Positions 21,422 to 33,202 of a stretch of 64,000 bases of DNA are shown here, piece by piece (the first letter of the stretch is position 1; the number at the start of each line of letters is the position of its first letter). The DNA is taken from assembly GCF_000001735.4 (NCBI RefSeq), contig NC_003076.8, positions 7,006,001 through 7,070,000 of the forward strand, in the 5' to 3' direction. The position numbers were made by a program, and so were the translations under genes. This DNA is from Arabidopsis thaliana. Its lineage: Eukaryota > Streptophyta > Magnoliopsida > Brassicales > Brassicaceae. The notes under the pieces were generated by a model. That model was not told the DNA's origin, did not search any database, and saw only the letters and a program-made list of their open reading frames with translations.

Positions 21422-21430
21422 TAACTTCAA
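21422..21430. repeat. Left 9-bp target site duplication of the MULE
   Basis: TAACTTCAA lies immediately before the GGG that starts the left terminal inverted repeat. The same nine bases follow the right end at 33194-33202. Nine bases is the usual target duplication length for Mutator-like elements. Confidence 0.9.
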
Positions 21431-21517
21431 GGGATAAGTTGCTATCTAGTCACTTATTTGAACTTAATTATTGATTTGGACAACATACTATTCACAATTA
21501 GCAATTTAGTAACCTGG
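21431..21517 (+). repeat. Left terminal inverted repeat of the MULE
   Basis: Starts GGGATAAGTTGCTATC, then TAGTCACTT. It aligns without gaps to the first 39 bases of the right end read inward, sharing GGG, TAGTCACTT, GAAC and TAATT. With small gaps it aligns on to AACCTGG at 21511-21517. Confidence 0.85.
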
Positions 21518-21772
21518 TCGTAACCCCACACATTGAAACATCCTGTGTACCCTTTTAAAATTTCTGTATTTTCAAAACTGCCACTGGGTAAATCCTTTCT
21601 GATTTTGCCCATGTCGTTTTGTTTTCCCCTTTTGTCTCGTCTGAAGTCAAAACAAAATTATACAGAGAATGACGAAAAAAAGAGAAATCAAATCCAGTAA
21701 AAAAAATTAATTTTCGTTGATTCCGTCGGAGTGAATCAACGTCAATCTCCTCGTAATCGTAGTAAAAGTAAG

Positions 21773-24700
21773 ATGTATTCTACTAAAGGTAAATTTTCAA
21801 CTTAACCCTAATTTCGTTTTATGTTTTCGATTCTGTGAATTTGTGAATGCTTAGTACCGGAATCCCAAATTGAAATGCAGATCCGGCGGTGTCTTCCACC
21901 GGAGCTTCATCGGACGTTGATAATTGGGACTTAATCCCTACTTTGCCTAAAGGCCTCTTCGCTGTTGACGGTTTGCCAGAGGGTGCTCGGCTTAACATCT
22001 ACTCCACACCGGAGTATTTGGGTTCTCTCGTCAAGCTACTGCACGGTTCTGAAGCCTGGGCTATATTAATGTCTTCTCAATTTAGGAAATTGTTCTTACT
22101 CCCTGTTGAAAGATGCTCTCACTCAGCGAAATTGATCCATGGAATGCTGTCGCGTCAAGTGATTACCCGGAAAATTAACGAACTGTGGGTGGTTTATGGT
22201 GGGTTTCCTTTTCGTTTTTCTCTGCGCGAGTTCCACATTTCCACTGGTCTTTTGTGTCATCAAATTCCCACTCAAGCTGAGGTTGAAGAACACCAAGACC
22301 CTGCATATCTGTGTGTTTGGAATCGTCTTTTTGGGGAGAAGAAAATTGTGTTTGTCACCGAAGTGCTTCAGATGCTCCAAGATGATTTGGAAGCGCCGGC
22401 TAACAAGAAGCTAACGACTTGGAAAAAATTATGTCTAGCTCTAATAGTCATTGTTGATGGTGTGGTTGTATGTAGCAACCGGTTAGCCGGGAGAGTAACC
22501 TCTCGGTTTGTTGAAATGTTACATGAACCTGAGTTTTTCATGGCTTACCCATGGGGCCGTGAGGCTTTCTCTTCAACAATGGAGCGTTTTGGCCCTGACC
22601 TTGGGGATTCGAACCCTATAGTTGAACTGAAGAAACGTTTATGTCAGAAAACCAGCCTTTGTTATGGCTTCCCTCTTGCCCTTCAGCTTCAAGTCCTCAA
22701 CTCTATTCCGGCCCTGTGTAGCAAGATAAAAGATCCTACTGATATGAGGAATTTCATAGACCGATCTCCTGTTGTGCTGGGCAAGACTATTCTCCTCCGT
22801 GAATCTCCTGTTCTTGAGGTTGAGTGTGATGCTAATGTAAGTAATATTACTTTTTCCATCATTTTCTTCTTTTTTTCCTGATCTTCTATTTATATGATAA
22901 GCCACTTGTTTCCATTTCTCCCAGTTATCTGTTGCCTACACTTTGACTCCCTCTGTAGTACTTAATGAGAATGAATTTGCTTGGTCTAAAGAAAACGATG
23001 ATCCGAAGGTTGAACATATGCTTGGTTTGATTAGTAAAGGTCATCGATTCCAACCTAACCAATGGCCTATTGATGCCACTACTGTGCAACCTACTAATGA
23101 TGAACAACACCCTAGTGGTAACCGGCGTCCCTCTCCTGGCCTGGCTGAAACCTCACAAGCTCATCCTATCCCTGAGATGTCAGCTAAAGAACCAAAGCAG
23201 TCATCCTTCCCCCCCCCCTCCCCCCGCAAACCCTTTACTCGTTCAGCTAGCAAGTCGTGTGGAGTAGGTCCGTCTAATCCTATTTGTAACCCTCCTTCCA
23301 GGAAAAGCAAAAATAGTGGTTTTGCTGCGCCTGCTGATGGCTCTCATCCGCGCGGTGAGAAAGGTTCTGCTGCTTTTGTTACCCATTCTGATTTGCTGGG
23401 GTTGAAGGATTGGTTCTCTCAACAGTTACATTTGCTGCGCTCTAATTTATTTGCTGATATGGAGAAGCTTGTAGAGTCGAAGTCTGCCTCTTTCAAGTCA
23501 GGTGTTCGTCCTTCCCGCAAAGTCAAAACTTCTCTCAGCAAGAAACCTTCGCCTTTTGTCAGCAAAAAACCTCCTCCATCTGATTCCCGTAAGCGTCAAC
23601 GCGTAGAAGTCCAATCATTATCTCCTGACACTTCTAAGGATATTGTTCAGGATGGTGGTTTCCATGCGCCATCCTTTGACTCTCCTTTTAACCCCAACTT
23701 ACCAGCAACTGAAGGTCATGATGATGCCAAATCTACTAGTCAGGTAACTATACTTCTCTTCTCATTGTTTTCTTATCTGTTTCAACAATACCTTAGCATT
23801 AATCTGTTTTGTCATGTGTTCTTGGCAGAACTTTTGTGGAGACACTCAAGAGCCACCTCTCCCAATGAAAGATTTAGATGTGGTAAATATATGTGTTCCC
23901 TTTTCTTTCAATATTTCATTTTCTAGGGGCCCTCCAAACCATATAAATGTATTTCTCCATTCTTTTGAAATACTATTTAGGATCAAGTAGGGGAACACCC
24001 AATAATCCTGCCCTGGCCTTCATCTCCTTTGTCTTCACCCAAAACTCCTTCGGCGCCTTCAGATCAGGTATTCCTCTAGCCATTTTGCTGGTTAAGATTC
24101 AGTCATAACATATGGAATTGAGGAAATAAATCTGGTGTCTTGTTTTATAGGTATTTGGGGATGGAGATGAAGTTGACTGCAATTCGTCAGCCATTGTCCC
24201 TGTAGCTCCTGCATATTTTCTTCACGAGACGATTAACATTCGACAGCCAGTTCTTCAAAAGCGTGTTCCAATACGGTCTCGGTACCTTGACCCTGCTCAA
24301 TATAGTGTGGACGCTAGGATAAGTGCTTTGTTTAAAAGCCGAACCAAGAAGCCTGCCTACAGCCCCCTTGGGTCTTTGGATGAGCTTGAATTTGAGAATT
24401 TTAAATCTCTTCTTCAAGAAGATACAGACCAGTAAGTTATTAAACACACTCTTCCTTGCTTTACAAATTACTAATCCACCATCTGCACTGGCCACAAGCT
24501 TTCTAATGCACACTTTTTGGATATTGCAACCAAGGACAAGTGGGTGACAACTGAGGTAATACATACTTGAATCTTTCCATACAATGTTACTAATGCCTTA
24601 TGCCAAAATTTAAGCATATTGTTACTTCTCAAACAGCATATGCAACTTATCATGGGAATGTTGTTGAGACGCCGCTGCAAATCATATGCCCTCAAACGGA

Positions 24701-25290
24701 TTACCATAATTGACACTTGGTTTACTGCTCTTCTGATGACACATCATGAAGATTTCATGCAATGTCAAGACAAGGGAAACTACGATTGGGGTTTATCAAT
24801 GAAGGCTTATGTAACTGGCAAATCAATCGGAAATCTTATGAAGTCTGAATTTCTAAGGAATGTTGATGTTGTCTATGTTCCTATGAACTGGGGGTCCTGT
24901 CATTGGGTTGGCTTGGTAATCAATCTTCAGCTCCGTAATGTGCTGATTCTTGACCCTTTTAGTGCCCCCTTTCCGGACGAACAAGTTTCGGTGATGATCA
25001 AACCTGTTACAGAGTTGCTTCCTTCGCTGCTTAAAAGATTTGCAATTCCAGCTCTCACTGAAAATCTCACTACTGAACCCTTCGATTGGTCCCGAGCATC
25101 TTCCATATATGACAACAATGGCGATGGCGACTGTGGCCCAGTTAGCTGCAAGTTTCTGGAGATGCATGCTCATGGTTTAGGTGTTGCTGACATGGCTCGG
25201 CTTACTGATGATGTTGTATCGAGGTTTAGGAAAGTCTATGCGATGGACACATATGCCACCTTTGTTGATTCCCCTAATCAAGCCGCCTAG
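21773..25290 (+). pseudogene. DUF1985/Ulp1 (C48) SUMO-protease-like gene of the MULE, one broken exon junction
   Basis: Exons by GT-AG: 21773-21788 (a 16-base coding exon, MYSTK), 21881-22836, 22925-23743, 23829-23882, 23981-24067, 24151-24431, 24499-24555 and 24637-25290. The N-terminal part carries a DUF1985 domain (YGGFPFRFSLREFHISTGL). The middle is Pro/Ser/Lys-rich with a basic patch (SRKRQRVEV), possibly a nuclear signal. The C-terminal Ulp1 protease domain has the triad His in SCHWVGL, Asp in LDPF and Cys in GDCGPVS. Family members cleave SUMO from proteins. At the sixth intron the only usable donor (24432) and acceptor (24498) leave exons 6 and 7 out of frame by one base, with TGA soon after. 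A lost G at the donor (ancestral CAG|GTAAGT) would explain it. All catalytic residues survive downstream. Confidence 0.8.
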
Positions 25291-25633
25291 TGCTTTGGAT
25301 GTTAATATTGTTTTTTGGATTATAAACTTCTACTTTTCTTCACTCACCCTCTCTTCAAACGATTATGCGTAACTTTTGTATTTATTTCTGAACTTTTTAT
25401 TAGTTTCTCTGCCTTGTAACTCCTTGTAACTTTCTTCCAAACTCTCTGTTCTAAATATCTAACTTTCATTACCTTCTCTGCCTTGTCACTCTTTGTTTTT
25501 AAACTCTCTGATATATTATTCCAACAAAGTTTCAAACTGTACATTCGATTCTGTACAGATATGTCTGTACAATGGATTCTGTTCAGAGTATTTCTGTACA
25601 ATCGATTCTGTACAGTTATAAATGTGTTCAATT

Positions 25634-26400
25634 AGCACTGTCGGCAAATCTTTTTTTGTTCCCAAATTTGTACAGATATTCTGTAAAATTATTCAAATGT
25701 ACAGTTTGTAATTAGTGTACATCTTGTTATCGTACATAAATAAATATTGCCTTCCATCCTCTTAGGTTCATGATACGAGCTTGGGGAATCTATTGTCTTC
25801 TCTTCCAAAACCTCTGGCCAGATGTCTTCCCCACAACTTAATCCACCATTCATGTAAACTGTACTGTATATAAGAATAGCACTGTCTGGCAAATCTTTTT
25901 TTGTTACCCAATTTGTACAGATATTCTATACAAATAGTCAAATGTACACTTTGTAATTAGTGTACATCTTGTTATCGTACAGAAATAAATATTGCCTTCC
26001 ATCCTCTTAGGTTCATGATACGAGCTTGGGGAATCTATTGTCTTCTCTTCCAAAACCTCTGGCTAGATGTCTTCCCCATAACTTAATCCCCCATTCATGT
26101 AAACTGTACTGTATATAATTTGTACAGTTTATGGAGCTGTACACATTTTGTATCGTACAATTACTTACTAATATAGTAATTCCCATATTTTTGTATAAGT
26201 TCACTTCCATCCTTTTAGGTTCTCTTTTACTTGCTTGGTGAATTTTATATGGTCTATTCCAAACCCTTGGGGCATATGTATTTCCTACAAGTTAGTTTCC
26301 CATATATATAAGCTGTACGAGTATATATATACTGTACAGTTTATGATTTGTACAGTTTCTGTATCGTACAATTACTTAATAATATAGTAATTCTCATTTC
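25634..26400. repeat. Tandem repeat, about 244-bp unit, with decayed extra units
   Basis: Unit 1 is 25634-25877 and unit 2 is about 25878-26118. They are nearly identical, each starting AGCACTGTC and containing ATTGCCTTCCATCCTCTTAGG and a near-perfect CTTGGGGAATCTATTGTC block. A more diverged unit runs about 26119-26339. A partial fourth unit follows, repeating CGTACAATTACTTA and AATATAGTAATTC at about 26153-26183 and 26364-26394. Every unit carries several GTAC cores. Confidence 0.85.
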
Positions 26401-26437
26401 TTTCTTACTTATCTCTCGTTTGCCATCAATTCTCTCC

Positions 26438-26446
26438 CTATAAATA
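26438..26446 (+). promoter_or_regulatory. TATA box of the first F-box-like gene
   Basis: CTATAAATA lies about 85 bases before the ATG at 26527, with a pyrimidine-rich leader between. The spacing is right for a start near 26475. Confidence 0.5.
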
Positions 26447-26526
26447 TCTTATTTCTTCCAAACCTATATCCACTTACCTTTTCGATCACTCTATATCTAT
26501 TATATTTTCCTTTTCAGCAAACGAAA

Positions 26527-27189
26527 ATGTCACTATCTGATTTACCCGATGATATTTTCCAAATCATTGTCAAGAAGCTTGGAGATGAAGACTTCAATCA
26601 TCTAGGCCCTATCATTCGTTCCAACAAGCGTGGGAGGGACATCGGTTTGTCTCGAGAGATACTTAAGTCTGCCAACCTAATGGGTATGTGTCTACACCCA
26701 CCTAACATTTTCCCCGGCCAGCTATTTAGAAATTTTTTTGTTCGATGTTTGGAATTCGAGAATGCGACGGCCATGTACTATGAAGCTATCCGCCTCATTG
26801 TTAGGGAGGAAAATGTGATGGGGTCTCTATTTTTGCTTAACCAACTTGTCCCCACCTACGACTATGCCACTATAGCATATGCCTTCTTCCAAATGTGTGC
26901 CGGGAGAGGTGATCTCGCAGGTACCACTTTTGACACCATCTTTGAACAAAACTCAGTCTCCAGGTGGGGCTCTATTTATTCTTTCGAGTTAGAGGTCAAG
27001 TGTGAAGCTCTTATTGACACGATTATGGATTTTCAACCACATTTTGGCATGACTTTCGCTCCTGACTGGAAATTTGCCTCCTCCGACTGCTTGAGCATTT
27101 CCGAATGTCCAGATTGGCATGGTGTTGAGTACTTTTGCGAAGGATGTTACATTTACTATGTTGCTTTGCGTATTCTAGAAGTTCTCTAG
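26527..27189 (+). CDS. F-box-like protein carried by the MULE, 220 aa, intact ORF
   Basis: A single open frame from ATG (context AACGAAAATG) to TAG. The N-terminus LSDLPDDIFQIIVKKLGDED fits the first helix of an F-box. A block FFVRCLEFENATAMYYEA follows at about residues 68-85. It resembles a conserved region in Arabidopsis F-box proteins of the At2g35280/At1g67623 type (recalled). A cysteine-rich end (YFCEGCYIYYVALRILEVL) closes the protein. F-box proteins are substrate adaptors of SCF ubiquitin ligases. It is homologous to the gene at 28188-28889, which faces it. It could have been captured from the host. No frameshift or internal stop is seen, unlike the transposase. Confidence 0.65.
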   Translation: MSLSDLPDDIFQIIVKKLGDEDFNHLGPIIRSNKRGRDIGLSREILKSANLMGMCLHPPNIFPGQLFRNFFVRCLEFENATAMYYEAIRLIVREENVMGSLFLLNQLVPTYDYATIAYAFFQMCAGRGDLAGTTFDTIFEQNSVSRWGSIYSFELEVKCEALIDTIMDFQPHFGMTFAPDWKFASSDCLSISECPDWHGVEYFCEGCYIYYVALRILEVL

Positions 27190-28187
27190 TATAATTTACG
27201 TTTTTCTTTATGCGATGCTTTATGTAATTTGTTCCTTTTTTCGGTCTCATGTAATCTCCATTGTATTGCTTATATTTTGGTATCTCCTATGTTTTCTCCG
27301 TCGAAGGACTGTAATTACTTGTGTAATATTTTTGGGGTTTTCTTTCTGTAATATATTATCAGTCCCGATAACATTTGCTTATATAAGAATTAAATATAGA
27401 ACTGACAAACTTTTTAACAAAAAATATGTACTTCTCTCTTCTTTCTCCAATCTCATAATGACTGTTTTGAAAAGCCATTTATCTCCAAACCAACTATTGT
27501 CAGTTGATGTGTCTTACACGCTTTTTAGGTTTGGAAGTTTACATTGGTATCCCCTATATCCTATCCCCTATATCCGTTTGGATAAGTCCTTCTTTCCCAC
27601 ACAAACTATATTATTGCCCTTAGTAAAAATTAACTAATATTTTAAAGAGGTAAATATTGACACTAACCACTAATTACTAACCCCTTCTCGCAGGGTTGTC
27701 TAATCTCACACCCACTTGGAATCTTTGCATGCCTTGATAAGTGCATCTAATATAATTTACAATTTATTTCTATCAACAGTTCTACTTTTATCACCTCACA
27801 TAAATTTACTTTTACTCGGTGCCCTAAATACTATTAAAAAATGCTCAAAACTTCCATCATCTTATCACCTCACATCTAAACTTTGTTGTTCGAACGCAAC
27901 TACATTTAATTTGTTGTTCGAACGCAACTACATTACAATTCATCATTAACAGGATCATTACAAACAGATTCATATTCCTTCTTACTTTGGACTATAAAAC
28001 CAAATTAACTATTACAACCAATTCATACATTACCCTAATTAAACAGAATTAAAACATTACCTCCTCAGCGTCTAAATATTACCTAAATTATACAGAAAGA
28101 GAATATTCATAACATGACACAAAAAACATAATCTTAATTTAATACATAAAAGGATTCAAAATTATTTTACATTCTTACCTCAAACCA
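27190..28187. other. Spacer between the two convergent F-box-like genes
   Basis: AT-rich DNA holding the 3' ends of both genes. It contains a 25-bp direct repeat (about 27882-27906 and 27910-27934, core TTGTTGTTCGAACGCAAC) and a repeated TTATCACCTCACAT (27788 and 27861). No further gene is seen. Confidence 0.55.
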
Positions 28188-28889
28188 TTACAGCATCTGT
28201 GAAACTTTTCTTGATAACCACCACAAATAGCATTCATTGCACAAGATCTCGTAAGGACCAGACACAGTTGCACAATCCATAGCACAATCTGGTGATGGAA
28301 GCTCCTTGCAGATAGGATAGACGAACGTCTTTCTCAAAGGAAAACTGGTGTGCCTTCTATACGGTTGTAAGTCATGTACTAGCTCCTCCCCATAACGTCT
28401 GACTTCCTCTGTTCCCAACTTACAATGTTTACCGCCAAAGACTTCGAGATAATGAACAGCCATTTCTTCATCTCCAGCACATATACTTAGTACTCCACAT
28501 GCGAATGTGGCCAGCCCGTCATCGGGCACGTTTTGATGTAGCAATGCTATTCCTCTTTTGACGTCTCTTTCTTCTGCCACAACCATTAACCCTTCATAGT
28601 AAATAGCTGTATTGTTCCCAGAATTAAGGCATCTTTCAAAGAAATCACGGTACCTCCCTTTCATTTGGACGCCAGTTGTTTGACAACGAAATGAGTAGAG
28701 GTCGCTTGGATCAGTACAAAGGCTGTAGATGTTTGCATCTTTCAAAACATCGCTGCGGTACACAATATTTCTTCCCCTAGTTCCAGCTTTCAAAATAGGT
28801 CCTAGTAACCACCATCGATCATCCGCCACCAGCTTTACAATTTTTGCTAAAATATCATCTGGCAAATCAGGCATCATCTCCATGGACAT
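28188..28889 (-). CDS. Second F-box-like protein carried by the MULE, 233 aa, intact ORF
   Basis: An uninterrupted frame from ATG at 28889 to TAA at 28188. The N-terminus MPDLPDDILAKIVKLVADDR is F-box-like. The following GPILKAGTRGRNIVYRSDVL and RCLNSGNNTAIYYEG align with the first F-box-like gene (GPIIRSNKRGRDI, RCLEFENATAMYYEA). The C-terminus CNECYLWWLSRKVSQML parallels CEGCYIYYVALRILEVL. The two proteins are clearly related but well diverged, so the duplication is old. Inferred role: SCF substrate adaptor. It converges on its relative. An alternative ATG three codons downstream is possible. Confidence 0.65.
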   Translation of the reverse strand: MSMEMMPDLPDDILAKIVKLVADDRWWLLGPILKAGTRGRNIVYRSDVLKDANIYSLCTDPSDLYSFRCQTTGVQMKGRYRDFFERCLNSGNNTAIYYEGLMVVAEERDVKRGIALLHQNVPDDGLATFACGVLSICAGDEEMAVHYLEVFGGKHCKLGTEEVRRYGEELVHDLQPYRRHTSFPLRKTFVYPICKELPSPDCAMDCATVSGPYEILCNECYLWWLSRKVSQML

Positions 28890-29604
28890 CGTCTTCGCTC
28901 TCTTTTACTCAAGTTTCTTTTGGTTTTCTATGTTTCTTATGTTTTCCCCCAAATTACTTGTGTAATGTTTAAATATTGTTATGAAGTAGCCTCCACAGTT
29001 GTCTGTGTGGTTGACAGTTGGAGGTCTTTAATGATTAACTAAAAGTTTCGTTATGCTTTTCCCACTCATTTACACATCAGGTGTATTTACTATGTGTACA
29101 ACATACTAGATGGATGAATAGTCATACTCCATCCATTATTCTGTACAAATCATGTTTGAGGTACATGTTTTCACCTTTTGTACAACAAAGGCGCTGGATA
29201 TTATATATACTATCCAGCGCCTGACTGTACAATTGTATAACTGTACAGTGCTTTTAATCTATTGCAAAATATCATTATATTTCAAAATAACATTAGAAAT
29301 ACGCTGATTACATATCCTTGCAAAGTCTAATATCACTTCATACAACGTAGGCAGTAGACATTTATCTGAAACATTTGTGACCATATTTCATATATATGTC
29401 TACCCCTAACCAAAACATCCAAAGTGTCCTATAACCTTCTATTCAAAAAACATTCCCCATACCTATGGTTATTGTACTCCATAGTCCAAAAGCCTATTTT
29501 CATAGGAATTAACTACGCAAAACCAAACCGAATTCACCAAACTTTTAAACCAAATGTAATTTGCCAAAAAAACTTTTCGCCCCTCATCTTTCTCCATCCC
29601 ATCA
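28890..29604. other. Upstream region of the second F-box-like gene and 3' flank of the transposase
   Basis: Contains six GTAC cores within about 165 bases (29093-29245), the same word that fills the upstream region of the first F-box-like gene. It also holds a perfect hairpin at 29190-29221, listed separately. From about 29290 to 29604 no gene is seen. Confidence 0.55.
29190..29221. repeat. Perfect 11-bp inverted repeat (hairpin)
   Basis: GGCGCTGGATA (29190-29200), a 10-base AT spacer, then TATCCAGCGCC (29211-29221). It is unusually GC-rich for the region and is flanked on both sides by GTAC motifs. It has no T-run after it, so it is not a conventional terminator. Confidence 0.8.
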
Positions 29605-32537
29605 TCAACCAAGTGGGTTGGTGCATGTCACCCTATTGTGTCCTAGCCCTCCACATCTTCCACACTTGTTAGGCTGTTTCGATTTGTTTTTCCCCTACAA
29701 CATTATCACGCCATTATATTACTTTATCTTATTGATTACAATATGCAATTCTGAAGCACAGTCCTCACCACTAACCTCATATTCTCCTACTGAATGTATC
29801 CGGAGTTTTGGTGGTCTTCCTGGTGGTCTCTTTGTTTGTGGAGGCATTAAGCACATCACTCTTATATCCTCTGGCACTTCCACTTCGGCTGGATCCTGAA
29901 CTGGTAGGATAGCTCCTTCGACCGTTGGTTGCCACATTTTAATTTTATGCATATCCCCAACTAACAATTTGTATTCAAATCCCCTTTCGTGAGCTGCAGC
30001 CATTGCGTGTGTACATGGAAGTGACCTCCCTCTTCTGGAACTCTAAGCAACTGCAAGTACGTTTCTGCAGCGAGACATGGAAGTGACCTCCCTCTTTTGG
30101 CTTTACCTCAAAATCCCATCTTCCAACAGCCAATAAAATCATCCCCAAGCCTCCCTTAAATCGTTTTAGCAATTCCCTTTCTACTGCTATTGGGATATCA
30201 CCTACGGTTCTTGCTATCCTTTTTCTGCGTGTTTTAAACCATCTCCCTAGCATTTTTCTTATGAATTCTATCAGTGCTAATACAGGGCTGCCTCTAGCTG
30301 GTAGCAATGCTTTGTTTAATGACTCTGCAATGTTGCTTGACATTAGATTATACCTCTCTCCTTCAAAATATGCCCTGCTCCAATTTTCAACTCCTATCCC
30401 TTCCAAGAATTCCCAACAACGAACATTCCTCTGCTTTATTCTATCATACTCATCATCGAAATCTTTCTTCCTGTACATACTTCCTGCTCTCCACACAAGT
30501 GATGGAAGTCCACTTTTTTCAGGTACTTTGCCTTAACATTCCTTCGTATGTGCACCAAACAAAAGCCATGATGTGCTTTAGGGTACACCTCAGGTATAGA
30601 CTTCAATATGGAAGAGTTCCTATCTGAAACAAATGTTAAGTCTTGCCCATCGTTAACAATTTCACTCAGCTGCTGCATAAACCATCTCCACGACTCATCT
30701 GTCTCACTGTCCACTATTGCAAAGGCAATGGGAAATATTTGAAAATTGGCGTCTTGGCAACTTGCTGTAAGTAAGCATCCCAAATATTTCCCAAATAGGT
30801 CTGTTCCATCAACTACTACAACTCGCCTAACATACGAAAGTCCTCGCACACTAGCCCCCAAAGCAACAAACACATATTTGAATCAGTCATCACCATTATC
30901 ATCTCTAACCGTTTCTAACTTCTACACTGTTCCAGGGTTTGCAAGTTTTAAGACATGTAGGTACACCGGTAATAGTGCGTAAGAACTCTCGTCTGTCCCT
31001 TGTGCTGTCACTACAGCCAATTCTTTCACTTTCCACGCCTTCCAGTACGAAACCCTAACATTGTGCTCAGTGAGAATACATTCTGGCAGGTCTCTTGCTC
31101 TTGGCCCACAATAAGCGTTTGCATATTTTGACCTCAAAAGAGCAGCAACAACCTTTGATGTAGCGTGTTTCGAAAACCTGCTACACGTTTCCACATTACA
31201 GAGATGATCAAGCTTAGCTTTCCTCACCTCATATTCTTCTGAATCACCTACTTTATGTGCAAAGACTCTCCAATCACATATTCTTTTGTCATCACATTCT
31301 GCTACTAGATAGTCTTTGCGGTACCTTGTAAATTTGAATTTGAATACGCGGTTTATTGCATAAATTGACAATGCCGTTTTGAAAGCTTCTCTTGTAGCAA
31401 ATGTTCTCCCAACATACATATTATCATCCTCCTTTGTTAAGTCCACATGAGCTGCTTTCTTGTTCATCTCCTCGTCGGCAAACATAGGCTCAAGGTCCGC
31501 ATAACCATAAACTTCATCTATCGTTATCCCAATCTTAGCTGCATCCTCAAGAGCTCTTTTCGCATTTCCTTTAAACAGGTTACCTGCACCCCAGACGACA
31601 ACTTCTTTACCTTTGTTCCTATTTGATGGTGGATGCTCTATGAAGTCATCATCGCCATTGTCTTCTCCTTTCTCTGCTGTTTTACTATCACCTTTATTGC
31701 CCATATCTTCAATCTTATCTCCATCAAAGTCATCATCTTCTTCCCCACTTTTTTGACTATAAACAGAAGATCCATCAGAGCTGTCCTCATCGTCTTTACA
31801 GTTTTCAGTCCCTTTATCCTGTCCATCAAACAAATTCTCCACAGCTTCCAATTCTCTGCCTCCTAAAAGTTGCAGCTCCACAGCTTGTACGTGCTCCAGC
31901 AGGATATCATCATTAATCTCACTTTGTTTCCCATCTTCTCCTAACAAAGCAGCTTCCACCTCTTCTACATGTGTTACTAAATCTTCGTCATTTATTTCCC
32001 AAATTTCTGAAACCGTCCTTTTGCTACCTCTGCCTTCCTCCTCATCTATTGTCTTCGCTCTCTCGACAACTGCAGACATTAGGCTTCCAAAGTACCCAAC
32101 ATCCCCAAACCCTCTCGACGAAGATCCTCTTTCTAACCTACTATCATCACAACTCTGCAAACTCCCTAACTTCTCTTCCTCCCGTCCGACAATAGTCCCA
32201 TCTGTCTCTCTGAAGCAGACAAATAGGTTCACAGATTTGTCTCCTAAGCTTAGAGATTTGAAAAACCTGAATTGCCAATCGTCTTTAATCATGGTTGGAC
32301 CTTCCTCTACCCCTCTCAATACTGCCAATTTGTCCTCAAACATGTAGCTAAGCTCCACGAAAACCGTACGTTTCTCCATTTTGAATATTTGTTTCACCTT
32401 CAATTCCAGATCCACCAAACATTTTAAATCTGACATCCTCAAACATCGACCTTGCCGGAAAGTATCCATCTTGAACTCCCATTCTCCGGAGCTGTACAGA
32501 ATCCACCTACCCGCTTGGGCGACGACAGTATCATCCG
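29605..32537 (-). pseudogene. MURA-type (MULE) transposase, four lesions
   Basis: Exons visible: 32537-29776 and 29694-29605. The N-terminus has the MULE block WILYSSGEWEF at about 32510 (an earlier short exon must supply the ATG; the first ATG in this exon is 32469). Then come an acidic linker, a MuDR DNA-binding region, and the catalytic core with VDGTDLFGKYLGC (Asp) and LTFVSDRNSS (Asp). A SWIM zinc finger (CSCLEFQ...) and a RPPGRPPK hook follow. The last exon carries a CCHC knuckle, CGRCGGLGHNRVTC. Lesions: in-frame TAG (30922-30924), in-frame TGA (30883-30885), loss of one base in an A-run (30514-30519), and a 4-base insertion near 30020-30023 that breaks the SWIM motif. All fall in otherwise well-kept sequence, so decay is recent. 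Confidence 0.85.
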
Positions 32538-33105
32538 CTGCAATTGGAATTCAAAAATAGTCGGTTATGTCTGTTATTACACCTACTAATTCGCATTCAA
32601 TTCCTGAACAAAATTAATCCAAAAAAACAAGTTCTCTCACCTTCCATTGGTGATAAACTTCTCTGCGTTTTATTGTTGAACATTTATTACACACAGCCAT
32701 ATTCTTATCCTTCTCAAATCAAATATATCTTCTACTGTCAAATCGTTTCTCGTTCCGCCCCATACATTTTCCTCCAATAACGATTCCATTATTAATATAA
32801 TTTCCACAGATTTTTCATATCCTATCGCTAATCATCTACAAATAGCTACACTATTAAGAGCTTAAACCCTTCTTATTTTCCCCCCTTACATTTAAGTCCA
32901 ACTGAAAATTTTTGTGCCCAAATGTGTAAGGAATCAAAGCCCATTTTTAGGCCCACACATAAACAAAATTCGTTACAAACACTCTATCTCCCCAGTGTCT
33001 CCCATTTATCTCTCTTTCCTGTCAAAAGGATTATTCGGTCATTTCAAACACCATCTCTTACCCCACCAAAACTTCTATTTCACGCTCCTCTATTACACGC
33101 GCATT
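32538..33105. other. Transposase promoter/leader inside the MULE
   Basis: AT- and pyrimidine-rich DNA between the transposase and the right inverted repeat. The missing first transposase exon should lie here. I could not place it with confidence. Confidence 0.4.
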
Positions 33106-33193
33106 CCAAGTTACCTCTTTTGCCAATTTCAAATAGTGACTTGCCGTATTACCCAATTATGTTCTCAAAAGTGACTACTTAGCCAACCAACCC
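33106..33193 (-). repeat. Right terminal inverted repeat of the MULE
   Basis: Read on the minus strand it starts GGGTTGGTTGGCTAAG, then TAGTCACTT. It continues through ACTATTTG and AATTGGCAA to TAACTTGG, matching the left repeat in order. TAACTTCAA follows directly outside. Confidence 0.85.
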
Positions 33194-33202
33194 TAACTTC
33201 AA
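33194..33202. repeat. Right 9-bp target site duplication of the MULE
   Basis: TAACTTCAA, identical to 21422-21430. Confidence 0.9.

Follow-up and report, generated by a model that had tools for sequence, protein, structure and literature searches.

Purifying selection on an F-box-like gene pair carried beside a VANC-like Ulp1 gene by a Mutator-like element of Arabidopsis

We analysed a window of 64,000 nt of the Arabidopsis thaliana genome (the whole stretch C5:7006001-7070000) and found in it a MULE of 11,763 bp (21431-33193) that carries two F-box/TPR-like genes, FbA and FbB, between a putative VANC-type gene and the transposase. Strong purifying selection acts on the F genes of its element group (group 1, which includes the window element and its three closest relatives), with dN/dS of 0.06-0.10, and the pair is very probably a selected module of the element lineage. 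Judged by its sequence, the element itself is almost certainly an Ulp1-carrying (KIU-type) VANDAL MULE. We give a probability of about 0.55 to the explanation as a whole, in which such an element would encode two different aids against host silencing. Lying next to the Ulp1-VANC gene, the selected F-box-like genes offer a concrete, deletable candidate partner.

Structure of the element and its DUF1985-Ulp1 gene

The sequence TAACTTCAA occurs on the plus strand of the window at two positions only, 21422 and 33194, and flanks the element as a perfect 9-bp duplication. When the first 87 bp inside each copy were aligned, 67% of the columns were identical; the alignment score, 24, was well above the highest of 1000 shuffles (5), so the terminal repeats are real but degenerate. 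An earlier sequence-only reading had described this duplication and repeats of about 87 bp, both of which were borne out. The Ulp1 gene, the two F-box-like genes and the transposase that it listed are also present; it overlooked the DUF1985 exon that precedes the Ulp1 exon (Table 1).

Table 1. Features of the element, in window coordinates
Feature	Position	Strand	Evidence
Target-site duplication, left copy, 9 bp, TAACTTCAA	21422..21430	+	exact sequence match
Left terminal inverted repeat, ~87 bp, degenerate	21431..21517	+	60/90 columns identical
DUF1985 exon of putative VANC/KIU-like gene, stop-to-stop frame	21874..22881	+	PF09331, E 3e-33
Ulp1 C48 peptidase exon of putative VANC/KIU-like gene	24571..25290	+	Peptidase_C48, E 8.4e-44; His/Asp/Cys triad by motif
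Noncoding tandem-repeat block, CTGTACA-rich, candidate VANC target	25537..26370	+	
FbA, F-box/TPR-like gene, single frame, 220 aa	26527..27189	+	
FbB, F-box/TPR_27-like gene, single frame, 233 aa	28188..28889	-	
Smaller second CTGTACA/TGTACA cluster, upstream of FbB	29095..29250	+	
Mutator transposase (DBD_Tnp_Mut, MULE catalytic, weak SWIM; separate frames)	29722..32547	-	
Right terminal inverted repeat	33107..33193	-	
Target-site duplication, right copy, 9 bp	33194..33202	+	

The transposase has Pfam matches to DBD_Tnp_Mut (1.7e-9) and MULE (PF10551, 4.7e-20), with a weak SWIM match below the cut-off (E 0.0098); VANDAL/KIU transposases are characterised by SWIM and CCHC motifs. The 9-bp duplication and the MULE domain together are those of a MULE; degenerate terminal repeats, DUF1985 with Ulp1 in opposite orientation to the transposase and repeats of a short noncoding motif are those of a VANDAL/KIU element. 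According to the available portions of the papers concerned, short or degenerate terminal repeats are a VANDAL feature (PMC6446971), the Ulp1 gene and the transposase lie on opposite strands (PMC2528002), and the VANC proteins of Ulp1-carrying VANDALs have both DUF1985 and Ulp1 (PMC13317346).

Since the VANC/KIU architecture is of this kind, we took the DUF1985 and Ulp1 exons, both in plus orientation, as one putative split gene. Its C48 domain had been read as that of a SUMO protease; the domain stands, and the gene is better described as a putative VANC anti-silencing gene that includes a Ulp1 domain than as a gene for a SUMO protease and nothing more. The positions that we take to be the catalytic triad were assigned by motif. 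His, Asp and Cys were all present at 15 of the 16 distinct Ulp1 places examined, the window, which defined the columns, included. The exception, at L064:5743-6285 (C1:2790000-2799999; one copy read), has Ser where the others have the catalytic Cys. The element of this family, which seems to have spread recently, may not need protease activity.

Distribution, origin and constraint of the F genes

The three closest relatives were read at both ends: C3 14766082-14783105, C4 1976929-1989648 and C5 12966786-12981781. Each insertion is bounded by a perfect 9-bp duplication of its own (TATAAATTA, CTTAATTAA and TATTTCTAT, respectively), as are all four elements examined at both ends, and the terminal repeats are 64%, 70% and 70% identical. 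The order and strands (DUF1985 +, Ulp1 +, FbA +, FbB -, transposase - in the window) are the same in all four, so one four-gene set recurs in four separate insertions. Other insertions of exactly this description had been named by the sequence-only reading as support for its view.

We searched the 119.66-Mb genome (7 contigs) with the element gene products and two families, and joined matches within 8 kb into clusters, leaving out second pieces of one gene. As the best 80 of 306 transposase candidates and 150 of 297 DUF1985 candidates were scored, the cluster counts are lower bounds. Among the matches listed, 40 clusters had DUF1985, Ulp1 and transposase; an F gene was present in 29 of them and none was detected in 11. 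The expectation that other members keep the F genes thus held for the three closest relatives and for 29 of 40 listed loci; at the other 11 no F gene was detected at this sensitivity. The share was 26/36 when matches were joined at 6 kb and 34/48 at 12 kb; an earlier count on a partial DUF1985 list had given 28/38, with 29/40 obtained from all 150 listed DUF1985 places. An F-gene match was found in 63 clusters among the matches listed, 58 of which also had DUF1985, Ulp1 or transposase, while 14 clusters found by TPR_27 alone, host-like, had none of these three among the matches listed.

Two elements are mixed in the cluster at C5:13274336. In each of the other 39, again among the matches listed, DUF1985 and Ulp1 are on one strand and the transposase lies beyond them on the other; at C5:10219236 a second DUF1985 match is situated past the transposase. 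Where detected, F genes sit between Ulp1 and transposase: FbA and FbB tail to tail in group 1, two in tandem in the large sister group, and one in a family of five places with equal search scores (the L064 family). By its numbering, the sister-group element C1:17036912-17048592 may be the VANDAL1 copy AT1TE56425. Target families of VANC1 from AT1TE56425 have been published, as stated in the available part of PMC10398659.

Of the F-gene domains, TPR_27 of FbB alone exceeds its Pfam cut-off (27.8 bits, cut-off 27); FbA matched F-box-like_2 alone, below the cut-off (E 0.034). No F-box at the Pfam cut-off was found in the window proteins or in 17 relatives. Among these relatives F-box-like_2 was matched in five (best E 0.09), F-box in one (E 0.24) and TPR_27 in 14 at E<=1. 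We therefore speak of F-box-like homologues and not of F-box proteins, and the label 'F-box-like' given from the sequence alone was a fair one. In an hhalign profile comparison with nine host F-box/TPR proteins, the element F proteins aligned with 98% probability over 200 columns, and the homology spans the F-box, the TPR part and the C-terminal Cys pair. The element genes and the host family are alike in this end-to-end homology and in TPR_27; the Cys pair is common to the element genes and part of the host family. Host gene L065 is above the Pfam cut-offs for F-box (25.6, cut-off 20.5) and TPR_27, whereas the examined element copies are below for F-box, as is host gene L069 (14.1), which passes for TPR_27. 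We take L065 and L069, by position, to be probably At1g67623 and At2g35280. The FbA relative from Arabidopsis arenosa is labelled 'F-box domain-containing protein' in UniRef. AlphaFold models were almost wholly helical (mean pLDDT 86.2 for FbA and 81.6 for FbB), and fold searches of the F proteins returned TPR-like matches with no confident SKP1-F-box match.

In the tree, 25 element F proteins are split from six host proteins (support 97/94), with FbA and FbB in separate clades, each containing one A. arenosa protein (P0013, P0002). In both clades the window copy is the earlier branch relative to the A. arenosa and C3-type copies, though not strongly supported (92/72, 85/64). This topology agrees with a single capture, followed by duplication within the element ahead of the divergence of these lineages. 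FbA and FbB are probably descended from one captured host F-box/TPR gene, two captures from near relatives being a possible alternative.

We determined dN/dS by the Nei-Gojobori method for the group-1 pairs C3-C4 and C3-C5, with bootstrap 95% intervals. The values were 0.10 and 0.10 for FbA and 0.10 and 0.06 for FbB, and all four intervals end at or below 0.17. For the same pairs we obtained 0.15 and 0.16 for Ulp1, 0.10 and 0.13 for DUF1985, 0.29 and 0.37 for the N-part of the transposase, and 0.11 and 0.09 for its MULE domain. The F pair is constrained about as tightly as the transposase catalytic domain, and the earlier proposal that selection maintains the cargo, F-box-like genes and Ulp1 alike, agrees with these values. 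F genes of the sister group are less constrained (medians 0.42, 0.52 and 0.33). That sister copies keep the same F pair suggests that the element uses it for itself.

These observations bear on the idea of passive transduplication, by which the F genes would be captured host fragments of no function. Gene-fragment capture is frequent in MULEs, as the available text of PMC2528002 states, and internal stops are present in some relative copies of F genes and of other element genes; yet given the low group-1 ratios, the separate FbA and FbB clades and the presence of F genes at many loci, we regard this explanation as highly improbable.

Constraint differed between segments of the two genes. In FbB, dN/dS (C3-C4/C3-C5) was 0.03/0.03 in the F-box-like part, 0.13/0.06 in the TPR part and 0.12/0.10 in the C-terminal part; the FbA values were 0.08/0.06, 0.14/0.14 and 0.05/0.03. 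The F-box-like part is therefore the tightest in FbB; in FbA the C-terminal part is held no less tightly than the F-box-like one. Between the window and C3, where dS is saturated, dN was 0.17, 0.38 and 0.36 for these three parts of FbA and 0.11, 0.31 and 0.24 for those of FbB. The F gene of L064 (a near-identical family at five places of equal search score; one copy read) keeps the TPR part alone, and no F-box was seen by eye in three frames upstream of it.

It may be, with a chance somewhat short of even, that the F genes are no longer linked to ubiquitin, and that their TPR and C-terminal Cys parts bind VANC or the transposase, taking the position of VANB in VANDAL21. The subthreshold F-box matches, the L064 gene and the constraint on the C-terminal segment of FbA favour this, as does the lack of an F-gene match at the VANDAL21 locus (best E 0.73 for FbA and 8.2 for FbB; the 9.5 kb compared may not span all of VANB21). 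The F-box-like segment, on the other hand, is the most constrained one in group-1 FbB, and in both genes by window-C3 dN.

The CTGTACA motif and the proposed action against silencing

From the DUF1985 and Ulp1 architecture of the putative VANC gene one would predict a family-specific noncoding motif, and CTGTACA fits. Tandem repeats of the window element, with units of 29 bp and 245 bp, are rich in it. Across eight noncoding stretches from the four elements its counts were 4-33 against shuffle means of 0.14-0.62, in all eight above the maximum of 300 shuffles. It was absent from all 10 noncoding stretches examined in eight sister-group elements and from the noncoding pieces of L064. The window stretch upstream of FbA had no plus-strand match at 1e-3 among the stretches of the relatives, thus the motif has outlasted the surrounding sequence. 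In sister-group noncoding stretches L052, L054, L062, L043 and L041 we saw enrichment of ACGTACAC/AGTGTACG in place of CTGTACA; these are GTAC-centred, related to it but different. ACGTACAC was enriched in 5 of 11 sister-group stretches and not enriched in the other six.

Spaced CTGTACA pairs numbered 165 in the genome, against 73 for the reversed pattern; among 100 places listed, three or more pairs occurred in 12 of 26 clusters. The two densest clusters among the places listed, L094 and L095, are gene-less and were found through the motif alone; both carry the family ends. The L094 copy (507-2165, 1.66 kb) has a longest stop-free stretch of 117 codons, a perfect 9-bp duplication TTATATTAT and terminal repeats 67% identical, while L095 was read without its far left end. 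Gene-less relatives thus keep the family ends and the motif.

Cut-and-paste substrates would be expected to look like these two copies, and the repeats could be transposase-binding sites rather than anti-silencing targets, with the F pair aiding transposition. We consider this rather unlikely. Most of the CTGTACA in the window lies in the Ulp1-FbA interval or upstream of FbB, away from the element ends, and tandem arrays of short motifs, with a different motif in 5 of 11 sister stretches, match the VANC targets described in the available text of PMC5735166.

By analogy with published VANC biology, the DUF1985-Ulp1 protein probably demethylates its own family through CTGTACA: it would bind the arrays of family members, gene-less copies included, and remove DNA methylation from them. 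The arrays are a ready test site for such VANC action. The F pair probably helps. FbA and FbB would act alongside the DUF1985-Ulp1 protein as adaptors, their F-box-like helices recruiting SKP1/CUL1 and their faster-evolving TPR part choosing the target; in this way a silencing factor would be ubiquitinated or cleared near VANC-bound DNA. The homology to host proteins and the constraint on the F-box-like segment point to this SKP1/ubiquitin route, but SCF-type action is doubtful, since the C-terminal segment of FbA is as constrained as its F-box-like segment; the L064 gene, lacking the latter, speaks against such action as a general rule. Slightly more doubtful is the broader proposal that a duplicated captured host F-box/TPR adaptor forms a ubiquitin-based second counter-defence arm, SUMO- and ubiquitin-type modules co-evolving as selfish genes. 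Some viruses turn the host ubiquitin machinery against silencing, and the F pair suggests that plant transposons may do likewise.

Comparison with known systems

At the VANDAL21 locus an ORF beyond VANC (L063:7497-7934) has a CPCGG...C pattern. By eye it looks zf-GRF-like, and we take it to be perhaps part of VANB21. The comparisons that follow rest on the available portions of the cited papers. VANDAL21/Hiun carries VANA, VANB and VANC (PMC5735166, PMC10398659), and VANC21 binds short motifs, which occur in noncoding DNA as amplified tandem repeats (PMC5735166); parts of VANC action are called enigmatic (PMC5735166, PMC10398659). With the window element it shares a DUF1985-bearing VANC gene and tandem motif arrays in noncoding regions. 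The difference is in the VANC protein, which is drawn with DUF1985 and DUF287 (PMC5735166) and has no Ulp1 named, and in the motif, YAGTATTAY (PMC5735166, PMC10398659).

The term 'F-box' is absent from the available portions of PMC5735166, PMC10398659, PMC6117577, PMC13317346, PMC2528002 and PMC6446971; Hoen 2006, Sasaki 2022 and Fu 2013 may describe F genes. Within these portions of the literature surveyed, we see a known kind of element combined with a conserved accessory F module that we did not find described.

The closest known system is that of the Kaonashi (KI/KIU) MULEs, which are Ulp1-carrying VANDALs (Hoen 2006 and Sasaki 2022, as cited in the available text of PMC13317346). The window element has in common with them a Ulp1 C48 gene opposite the transposase, DUF1985, a 9-bp duplication, weak terminal repeats and family-specific noncoding motifs. 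The review gives Kaonashi/KIU elements three coding genes, KIU being one of them (PMC13317346, same portion), whereas the window element has the F-box/TPR-like pair; the third coding gene of the published elements may itself be an F gene.
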